From NCBI GenBank assembly GCA_001548435.1, contig AP017308.1:1-64000 (forward strand): DNA of 64,000 nucleotides, read 5' to 3'. The position numbers were made by a program, and so were the translations under genes. This DNA is from Leptolyngbya sp. NIES-3755. Lineage in GTDB: Bacteria > Cyanobacteriota > Cyanobacteriia > Leptolyngbyales > Leptolyngbyaceae. Of the stretch, positions 10,873 through 13,310 are shown piece after piece. How positions within the stretch are numbered: the stretch's first letter is position 1; every line of letters begins with the position of its first letter. Below the pieces are notes generated by a model. It saw only the letters and a list, made by a program, of their open reading frames with translations, searched no databases and was not told the DNA's origin.

Positions 10873-10966
10873 GATCGCAGTTACTCTTTTTGCATTTCTA
10901 ATCCTACTCCGTAATGTTTCAGAATATATGACATGATGATTTCTGCCATCAAGTAATTTCGCTAGA

Positions 10967-11182
10967 ATGAGTTCACCGATTTATCCAACTCCAGCACAAG
11001 AAGCAAGATGCGTCTTACTTTGCATGAATTTAACAAGAATGTATGTTCCAATTTATCTTGTGCGACTTGATGAGCGAAATAGAAACATCATTTTGCTAGC
11101 TGGCGAAGAGATTGAGATTTGTATTTCTGAAGACGGAGAATGGGGGTACATAGAGTCAACTACCTCACCCACAAGGGGATGA
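10967..11182 (+). CDS. Small cyanobacterial protein, DUF6888-like
   Basis: A 71-residue protein. The core ([29 protein letters not shown], then [11 protein letters not shown] and EWGYIE) matches, from memory, a short cyanobacterial family that is usually encoded next to DUF6887 proteins such as the one at 11515. No membrane segment or catalytic motif is visible and the function is unknown. Its last codons (SPTRG) fall inside the first hairpin of the RNA candidate at 11163, so the original C-terminus may have been altered by insertion of that element. Confidence 0.65.
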
Positions 11183-11284
11183 GGCTTGCACTTCCACATC
11201 CAACTAGCCGTCTAGAAGTCGGAGCGCAATAGGCGGATTGACTGCCGCCCGAAGTATTCAATTCTTTTGCAAGGAGCCGCTAAA
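11163..11284 (+). ncRNA. Structured RNA candidate resembling HEARO/omega RNA
   Basis: Paired segments seen directly: hairpin 11163-11184 (CCTCACCC-ACAA-GGG with a 2-nt bulge, then TGAGG); hairpin GGCGG 11232-11236 with CCGCC 11245-11249; multiloop stem ACTTC 11190-11194 with GAAGT 11251-11255; and a closing helix CTTGCA 11185-11190 with TGCAAG 11268-11273 that traps part of the Shine-Dalgarno AAGGAG at 11271-11276. The ACTTC stem and the closing helix share base 11190, so only one of them can use it. The compact RNA ends just before an ATG, the layout of HEARO RNAs upstream of IscB/IsrB genes. The class assignment is by recollection and needs a covariance search. Confidence 0.5.
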
Positions 11285-11518
11285 ATGCTCGTCCCTCTCT
11301 TCCAAAAAGCCGAAGCTTCTGAAACGGTTTCTCCTGTAGTGCGTAGCCTTGCAGCGAGTGCCTTGATTAAGGAAGTGGGCTTGTCGTACAAGCAACTATA
11401 TCAAGGTTCTTCGTTCATTGCAAAGAAAATTGCCAGTCTGCGGGGCATTGAACCCCTTGACTGGCGCTCCTATCTCTCCCAACCCACAAGGGGATTGGGT
11501 TTCTCGGAGGTTTTATGA
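11285..11518 (+). CDS. Short unrecognised ORF after the structured RNA
   Basis: 77 residues from ATG 11285, with AAGGAG 9 nt upstream; an in-frame TTG at 11267 would place the start inside the RNA. It begins MLVP, as some IscB/IsrB proteins do, but shows no RRXRR, RuvC or HNH motif after that. It ends in SQPTRGLGFSEVL, where PTRG repeats the end of the DUF6888-like protein because both cover a copy of the ACAAGGGG hairpin. The stop overlaps the next start as ATGA, suggesting translational coupling. It may be a rearranged remnant rather than a functional gene. Confidence 0.45.
   Translation: MLVPLFQKAEASETVSPVVRSLAASALIKEVGLSYKQLYQGSSFIAKKIASLRGIEPLDWRSYLSQPTRGLGFSEVL
11480..11503 (+). repeat. 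Second ACAAGGGG hairpin, partner of the one at 11163
   Basis: CCCAA-CCC-ACAA-GGG with a bulge and TTGGG: the loop and inner stem are the same as in 11163-11184, while the outer stem is changed on both sides (CCTCA/TGAGG there, CCCAA/TTGGG here). The changed but still paired stem implies selection for the structure. It lies just before the start of the DUF6887-like gene. Confidence 0.55.
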
Positions 11519-11739
11519 AACCTGATTATTTAGCGATGACTAGGGCGGAGTTGAGAGCTTATGTATTGTCTCACCATGAAGATACAGAAGCTTTCCATGT
11601 GCTTGCCGATCGAATTTTGGCAGATCCGAATCTGAAGGTCTATTCCCCTGAAGATGTCGATCGCTTTCCTGAAATTTACGAGGAACATCGCAAGCGTAAA
11701 GAAGCCGAAAAGAATTCGGGTGAATCTGAGCAAAATTAA
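11515..11739 (+). CDS. Small cyanobacterial protein, DUF6887-like
   Basis: 74 residues: MKPDYLAMTRAELRAYVLSH, then HEDTEAFHVLADRI, and a charged tail rich in Glu and Lys. The M-T-R-x-E-L-R-A-Y-V-L block is, from memory, the hallmark of DUF6887 proteins, found in cyanobacteria beside DUF6888 partners. The function is unknown; the pairing of two tiny proteins has led to toxin-antitoxin guesses but nothing here proves it. The start overlaps the preceding stop (ATGA). A strong terminator follows. Confidence 0.7.
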   Translation: MKPDYLAMTRAELRAYVLSHHEDTEAFHVLADRILADPNLKVYSPEDVDRFPEIYEEHRKRKEAEKNSGESEQN

Positions 11740-11748
11740 TTCAGGTTG

Positions 11749-11785
11749 AAAAGGGGAATGAAATCGAGTTCCCCTTTTGTTTTTT
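11749..11785 (+). terminator. Rho-independent terminator after the small-gene cluster
   Basis: A perfect 10-bp stem (11749-11758 with 11769-11778), 10-nt loop, then a G and a run of six T. It separates the small genes from the convergent chlB. Confidence 0.85.
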
Positions 11786-13310
11786 ATGCGCCAACCGCTT
11801 CTTTTGCAGCGTAGAGCACTTCAGCCGTGATTTGAGTGATATTGCGATCGCGGGCAAATTTCTCAGTATTCCGCTTCACTTTACCCCGCACAAATCCCGG
11901 AATCCGATTCAGTTCCGCCAATCCATCCTTGCTCCAACCCAGATCCGACTCTGCCGAAACCGATTTGGTAATGACTTCTTTCGTATCGTGACCGCCAAAG
12001 ATTTCGAGCAAGTGATCTTCCATTCCGAGTGTGAACGAGTTGTAGATCAAATCGACAATCTGATTACTGCCTTCATAGCCTACGAATGGTTTATATCCGA
12101 CTGGGAAGTTCTGAATGTGAATCGGAGCCGCGATCACACCGCAGGGAATATCCAATCGTTTTCCGACGTGGCGTTCCATCTGAGTGCCAAAAATTGCAGC
12201 AGGTTCAAGACGGGCGATCGCATCTGCAATTTGTCCATGATCTTCACTGATCAAAACATCATCACAGTACTCGCTCACTTGATTTCTAAACCATTCTGCA
12301 TCGTACTTACAATAGGTTCCTGCCAGCAACACATGAATCCCCATTTCACGCGAGAGAATCTTGGTAATAGCTGCCGCGTGAGTGCTATCTCCGAAGACGA
12401 CTGCTTTTTTGCCGGTCAGGTTTTGGCAATCAATCGATCGAGAAAACCAAGCTGCCTGCGACACATATCGCGTTTGCTGATCAATCAATGATTCATAGTT
12501 CACATCCGCACCTTGAGCATTGATCACTTGCTGAATTTTGCGAATACAACGTGCTGTTTCAACAATGCCCATTGGCGTAATGTCTACATACGGCATTCCA
12601 AATTCTTGCTGCAAATATTCCGCTGCAAGCATTCCCGTCTCACGATACGGAACTAAGTTAAACCAAGCGCGAGGCAAGGTTTTAAGCTCATGCACACTTG
12701 CACCCTGAGGCACGATCGCATTCACTTCAATCCCCAAATCAGCCATGAACTTCTTCAGTTCAGTCGCATCATGATTGTGATGAAATCCAAGTGTCGTCAG
12801 TCCAAAAATGTTCACCGAAGGCTTCTCAGTCTTTTCCGTCACTAAATCGCCTTTCTTCCGAGCTTTTGCGATGTAGAACTGTACAATCTGTTGCAATGTT
12901 CGATCGGCAGCTTGTAGCTCATTCACACGATAGTGATTCACATCCGCCAACATGACATCACACTGAGCTTCAATCTGCGCCCGCTCCACAAAATTCTGCA
13001 AATCTTCCTGCAAAATGCTCGATGTACAAGTCGGAGTCAGAACGATCAAATCAGGATGTTCTTCGCCATCTTTGCGCGTGATGTTATCGACCACTTTTTC
13101 TTGCGAACCACGAGCGAGAACATGACGATCGACGACGCTGGTTGTGACCGGAGTATAGTCTCGTTCTCGCTCTAACATTGATCGCATGACATTGAAATAG
13201 TCATCGCCCAAGGGAGCGTGCATAATCGCGTGAACATTCTTAAAAGAACTGGCAATGCGGAGTGTGCCAATGTGTGCGGGTCCTGCATACATCCAGTAAG
13301 CTAATTTCAT
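11784..13310 (-). CDS. chlB: Light-independent protochlorophyllide reductase subunit B
   Basis: A 508-residue nitrogenase-like subunit. With ChlN it forms the NB protein that binds protochlorophyllide and a [4Fe-4S] cluster and, with electrons from the ChlL iron protein, makes chlorophyllide in the dark. The N-terminus [18 protein letters not shown], the Cys in [24 protein letters not shown], and the C-terminal DVLYAAKE-like helix are characteristic. chlL and chlN are not adjacent. GGGAG lies upstream of the ATG. Confidence 0.98.

Follow-up and report, generated by a model that had tools for sequence, protein, structure and literature searches.

A probable tnpB-less IS200/IS605 element with a predicted TnpB-type omega RNA between DUF6888 and DUF6887 in Leptolyngbya

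The DUF6888-DUF6887 locus and its element

The window analysed here is a stretch of 64,000 nt from Leptolyngbya sp. NIES-3755 (contig AP017308.1, positions 1 to 64,000). Within it, two small genes of the plus strand, coding for DUF6888 and DUF6887 proteins, are separated by a stretch that contains a 77-codon open reading frame on the plus strand and a series of features on the minus strand (Table 1). Among 39 genomes, 19 have DUF6887, often with DUF6888 adjoining, and a search of the open-access literature returned no paper on either family.

Table 1. Features at the DUF6888-DUF6887 locus (positions of the window)
Feature	Position	Strand	Basis and remarks
DUF6888 gene	10967..11182	+	Pfam PF21828, E 1.5e-24; longer C-terminus as a result of the insertion
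Predicted guide, first 20 nt past the right end	11135..11154	-	Matches the insertion site at the end of DUF6888; placed after the ISDra2 arrangement (PMC10097598)
Non-autonomous IS200/IS605-type element, 360 bp (very probable)	11155..11514	-	Left end 11514, right end 11155; empty site, copies, ends common to L148
Predicted omega RNA (reRNA) scaffold	11155..11255	-	Hairpin 1 11231-11250, hairpin 2 11186-11229, hairpin 3 11162-11185, pseudoknot 11237-11242 with 11155-11160
Remnant of tnpB 3' end (LRAAVNPPIALRLLDG, stop)	11204..11254	-	Corresponds to the C-terminal end of the L004/L005 TnpB (372 aa)
ORF of 77 codons inside the element	11285..11518	+	Confined to element copies; coding status unsettled
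Promoter-like TTGCAA-17-TATAGT, TG before the second hexamer	11395..11423	-	Consensus match only, 9/12; points at the omega RNA
Left-end hairpin GGGGTTCAATGCCCC, T-loop-like loop	11442..11456	-	Present in several TnpB elements too
Left-end subterminal hairpin CCCAATCCCCTTGTGGGTTGGG	11478..11499	-	Sequence; direct repeat of the right-end hairpin, 86%
GGAGG, Shine-Dalgarno-like	11506..11510	+	Supplied by the element, 4 nt before the DUF6887 ATG; motif match only
DUF6887 gene	11515..11739	+	Pfam PF21826, E 8e-21; its ATG directly adjoins the element
Target motif TTTCAT flanking the left end	11515..11520	-	Plus strand reads ATGAAA, start codon of DUF6887

A same-genus genome (G006) contains the syntenic DUF6888-DUF6887 locus without the intervening stretch (L115). 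The alignment of this empty site with the window breaks exactly at 11154/11515, the flanks being 87.4% identical over 1723 nt and 85.7% identical over 1509 nt. The insertion therefore comprises 360 bp (11155-11514) and took place without target duplication, as read from the exact empty site in this one genome. At the empty site the two genes are adjacent and overlap by ATGA, DUF6888 ending in ...GYIE followed by a stop codon that overlaps the ATG of DUF6887. After the insertion DUF6888 gains eight residues behind the terminal E of GYIE. Translation of DUF6887 would now be initiated through the GGAGG that points outward at the left end of the element, in place of the ATGA overlap with DUF6888 that was lost. 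Perhaps the two host genes constitute a two-gene module.

Read on the minus strand, the element is made up of a left end of about 110 nt with a hairpin, a middle of about 150 nt and a right end of 101 nt. A direct repeat of 21 nt (86% identity; 11167-11187 and 11482-11502) overlaps a hairpin at each end in the same orientation. Inverted repeats of at least 12 nt were absent from 10900-11800, so that no terminal inverted repeats were detected there. In the whole genome (6.76 Mb in four contigs) the complete stretch of the element occurs three times, namely in the window and in copies of 98% and 82% identity, and a full copy of 81% identity is present in another genus. The left flank is readable in seven copies of the small element (window, L002, L003, L010, L012, L018, L023) and shows ATGAA in each of them. 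A hairpin with a T-loop-like GTTCRATG, set inside a further, varying stem, was observed in the left ends of the window element (11442-11456, minus strand) and of L004, L013, L049, L055, L092 and L148. A tRNA-like reading of this hairpin was rejected, as ARAGORN found no tRNA in seven loci.

A 28-nt core of the sequence is found at two further places in the genome. Both are the 3' ends of intact genes for 372-aa TnpB proteins (L004 and L005, 97% identical), the domains of the L004 protein being OrfB_IS605 and Cas12f1-like_TNB. On the minus strand of the window the last 16 tnpB codons and the stop codon are kept in frame and lie within the omega RNA scaffold. With the L004 TnpB as query (E 1e-80), a search through 388 genomes of the class gave matches in nine of them, the own genome included. 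A tnpB element of another genome, L148, encodes a TnpB 86% identical to that of L004; its right end is identical to 11155-11255 (minus strand) at 91 of 101 positions and its left end shows 78% identity over 104 nt. Since L148 shares both ends, the window element is, as far as sequence comparison goes, a tnpB element in which the coding region has been replaced by about 150 nt, and this middle has no counterpart in the parent-type element. Overall, we regard 11155-11514 on the minus strand as very probably an internal-deletion derivative of an IS200/IS605-family tnpB element, 360 bp long, inserted after TTTCAT between DUF6888 and DUF6887 without target duplication and equipped with a complete TnpB-type omega RNA.

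The right end on its two strands

Judged by homology and covariation, the minus strand encodes a TnpB-type omega RNA (reRNA) that overlaps the tnpB 3' end and the right end of the element. The predicted minus-strand fold of 11155-11255 has an energy of -40.0 kcal/mol (z -2.43), compared with -29.7 kcal/mol (z -1.29) for the plus strand over the same span. We aligned 13 right ends, namely those of the window, of four further copies of the small element and of eight tnpB elements. In this set 97.5% of the cells are paired; shuffles reach 92.8%, and sliding the partners brings the value down to 34-49%. Changes on both sides affect 17 cells, compared with 5.4 in shuffles (0 of 500 shuffles as high). 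In the pseudoknot the loop GUCAAU pairs with the last six bases, GUUGAC; all of its cells are paired in the 13 sequences, with one varying pair only, changed on one side. A change from C-G to A-U in L049 represents covariation in the pseudoknot. When exchanging partners between loci (48, of which 46 were assignable, out of the 65 that encode relatives of the L019/L049 TnpB), strict Watson-Crick pairing was found for 27 of 46 own pairs and 536 of 2070 swapped ones; admitting G-U leaves a weak contrast (35 of 46 versus 1127 of 2070, respectively). The guide of this RNA would run from 11154 downwards, away from the 77-codon ORF.

The original prediction had placed a compact structured RNA resembling HEARO on the plus strand at 11163-11284, ahead of the 77-codon ORF, and had read it as either a solo guide RNA or a translational switch. 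This interval is the right end of the element read on the wrong strand. The proposed stems can be drawn, but their fold is no more stable than expected from the composition (-30.9 kcal/mol against a shuffle mean of -31.55 kcal/mol, z 0.18; 113 of 200 dinucleotide shuffles did as well or better). On the minus strand the same interval reaches a z of only -0.82. The 6-bp helix between CTTGCA and TGCAAG, described as closing the structure, is part of the minimum-energy fold and its CTTGCA partner is present in copies of the small element, but all eight tnpB elements examined lack it (no CTTGC in the 60 nt preceding the scaffold). In the minus-strand structure, all 13 sequences pair GCAA from the TGCAAG segment with a UUGC that directly follows hairpin 1. 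The covariation among homologues that had been suggested as a check thus speaks for the minus-strand structure, while the plus-strand fold stays at shuffle level. A solo guide RNA without its nuclease was correct in kind, the RNA being of the TnpB type, but not in strand, in guide direction or in its assignment to HEARO. The translational switch loses most of its basis, with a plus-strand fold at shuffle level and a locus that exists without the element in L115; a plus-strand riboswitch was rejected on the same energetic grounds.

Two other readings of the plus strand were considered. That a HEARO RNA or a derivative of it lies there, as a compact structured stretch directly ahead of an ORF might suggest, has virtually no probability left. 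No Rfam family reached its gathering score anywhere in the window, and a lax search of 10950-11760 (E up to 10) gave four sub-threshold matches, none of them HEARO. This negative is meaningful, since the HEARO model (RF02033) does find a match elsewhere in the same genome (C1:3495501-3495706, L162; 85.4 bits, cut-off 83). The interval is followed by the 77-codon ORF, in which no Pfam family was found at the cut-off, and then by DUF6887 instead of an IscB-type nuclease, no iscB-like ORF being recognised; the homology to tnpB 3' ends lies on the other strand. Alternatively, the 77-codon ORF might be translated as a plus-strand leader that is coupled to the host gene at the left end or continues into it. 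GGAG and the ATG of the ORF are kept in four of the five other copies covering the spot (L002, L003, L010 and L012; lost in L011), the frame is open over 69-100 codons at seven places, and the stop codon overlaps the ATG of the target motif in the window, where it is the ATG of DUF6887, and in L002. In codons 1-40 the differences to the window favour third positions in four copies (11/22, 11/21, 10/20 and 15/33) and dN is below dS in all four. However, this excess is weak (p between 0.06 and 0.10 in each copy, and 0.175 with variable columns counted once), is seen as well in one minus-strand frame and is absent from codons 41-77. The ORF furthermore stops after 47 codons in L003, has a 1-nt deletion near its start in L018 and L023, and occurs in element copies only (seven places, 4 of 30 genomes), with no homologue outside the element in these 30 genomes; at L115 the locus exists without it. 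We therefore consider a translated leader improbable and the ORF to be probably not a functional gene.

The minus-strand reading leads to a proposed mechanism. The element would have been moved by TnpA (Y1 transposase) acting in trans; the genome contains three Y1_Tnp matches, one with an internal stop, all more than 100 kb from the three element copies. The minus-strand transcript could load TnpB made elsewhere, e.g. by the two intact 372-aa TnpB genes of this type. Such cross-loading is uncertain because the second and third hairpins of the omega RNA of the native elements L004 and L005 differ from those of the window. TnpB loaded with the solo omega RNA would cut the empty site and favour retention of the element, a step for which we see the chances leaning somewhat to the negative. 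A transposase requires the right-end hairpin and the end sequence regardless, and recognition by the transposase might by itself account for the conserved right end. The element might accordingly be a dead remnant, a passenger mobilised by TnpA whose omega RNA is a fossil kept since the right end is needed for transposition. This possibility is almost evenly balanced. It agrees with an element that has no tnpB, and with the numerous transposase-free IS605 derivatives (PATEs) that PMC3119063 describes for Haloquadratum. What argues against it is the extent of conservation, which is not confined to the terminal hairpin but runs over the scaffold of 101 nt, with hairpin 1, the base of hairpin 2 and the pseudoknot included. 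Between the window and L003 the right end is identical at 99 of 101 positions while the middle has diverged to 110 of 147 (left end 64 of 96); for L010 the values are 88 of 101, 110 of 147 and 59 of 86, respectively.

Start-codon flanks in related TnpB elements

For a wider view of the left flank we used 65 loci (L049-L113) encoding relatives of the L019/L049 TnpB, together with L004, L005 and L013. The boundary was defined as the TCAT leading into the left-end hairpin. It was assigned mostly by rule and in four cases by eye (L062, L067, L095, L104); with more than one candidate TCAT, the choice fell on the one that leads into the hairpin. This gave 59 elements, 56 of the 65 plus L004, L005 and L013; the boundary stayed unassigned in L061, L064, L077, L078, L089, L094, L101, L106 and L107. 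In 33 of the 59 elements (31 of the 56) the flanking ATG opens an ORF of at least 60 codons, and no lengths between 42 and 76 codons occur. At other TCAT sites in the flanks this applies to 161 of 861 (18.7%; binomial p 2e-10). When considering only TCAT sites outside gene interiors, the window gives a background of 35 of 138 (p 6e-7) and the flanks one of 102 of 520 (p 8e-10).

We compared the 33 ORFs with NCBIfam, taking as an early start an alignment from within the first 12 residues and profile positions up to 6. Twelve align to a family from an early start: L005 (mobA), L058, L059, L066, L070, L073 (moaD), L076, L082 (purQ), L084 (valS), L090, L092 (map) and L095 (rmlD). Ten have no family, ten are uninformative, and one (L063, ggt) starts inside the gene. 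The start-codon pattern in the related TnpB group is thus well supported.

A Shine-Dalgarno-like 4-mer is located 3-14 nt before the ATG in 35 of the 59 elements, whereas shuffles predict 6.7, and at other TCAT sites one is present in 27 of 513. Its presence as the cause of the start-codon location was rejected: 20 of 33 elements at long ORFs and 15 of 26 elsewhere have the motif (Fisher p 1.0). Being equally common at and away from long ORFs, the motif belongs to the element and does not predict its location.

No enrichment was found in the window element's own subfamily (n = 14: window, L002, L003, L010, L012, L018, L023, L004, L005 and L145-L149), with a long ORF at the ATG in three cases only (window, L005, L146). 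The same holds for ten further left ends (L014, L015, L016, L020, L024, L025, L026, L027, L029 and L030), two of which are at long ORFs (L026, L027). The window copy may be one instance in a subfamily in which the start-codon position is due to chance. As a tentative and rather doubtful generalisation, a group of cyanobacterial IS200/IS605 TnpB elements would be built for host start codons: (T)TCAT reads as ATGA(A) on the opposite strand, the outward Shine-Dalgarno would keep host translation going, and TnpB-less derivatives would keep the omega RNA as a solo guide, held in place by TnpB acting in trans. Start-codon-flanked TnpB elements with an outward Shine-Dalgarno were not reported among the open-access matches listed, nor in passages of PMC10711439, PMC10097598, PMC9755519 and PMC12558985.

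Known systems and implications

The PATEs (palindrome-associated transposable elements) described from Haloquadratum walsbyi derive from IS605, lack a transposase and have palindromes close to their ends (PMC3119063). The window element resembles them in having no transposase, near-terminal palindromes, no target duplication and ends in common with IS605-type transposons, and also in the existence of very short terminal-only versions, represented here by copies of 46 and 51 bp in L015 and L026. Unlike the PATEs as described there, the window element is cyanobacterial, retains an omega RNA scaffold supported by covariation together with a promoter-like site pointing at it, and bears a Shine-Dalgarno-like motif on its outer left end at a host start codon.

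With the omega RNA of ISDra2 TnpB the predicted scaffold shares the overlap with the tnpB 3' end and the right end, a guide that begins at the element end, and a pseudoknot joining guide-proximal bases to a far part of the scaffold; in ISDra2, bases -5 to -3 before the guide pair with -103 to -105 (PMC10097598). The window element differs from ISDra2, as presented in this source, by the lack of tnpB, by other stems and by its target motif, TTTCAT instead of TTGAT. HEARO (RF02033), the omega RNA of IscB, is located in the 5' UTR of the nuclease gene according to PMC9755519. It is likewise a transposon-associated guide RNA, but differs from the RNA in the window in sequence, structure, nuclease and position, and its model has no match here.

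The plausible HEARO call has in this way become a guide RNA of the TnpB type on the opposite strand, with an exact insertion, an empty site and a parent type. Should the start-codon pattern belong to the elements themselves, it would show how an RNA-guided mobile element can take up positions at host gene starts without necessarily silencing them. These starts would include those of housekeeping genes such as purQ, valS and map, and the target motif of a nuclease would be tied to host translation. Solo omega RNAs with TnpB encoded elsewhere in the genome offer a natural test of guide sharing.

Further observations concern small copies and recent activity. The terminal-only copies, near 1491 in L015 and near 1486 in L026 (minus strand), consist of the left outer end, one hairpin and the right end and are flanked by TTCAT; a 171-codon ORF opens at the ATG of the L026 copy. 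In genome G023, seven near-identical left ends are located close to contig ends (L016, L020, L024, L025, L027, L029 and L030), and their near-identity suggests a recently active element.
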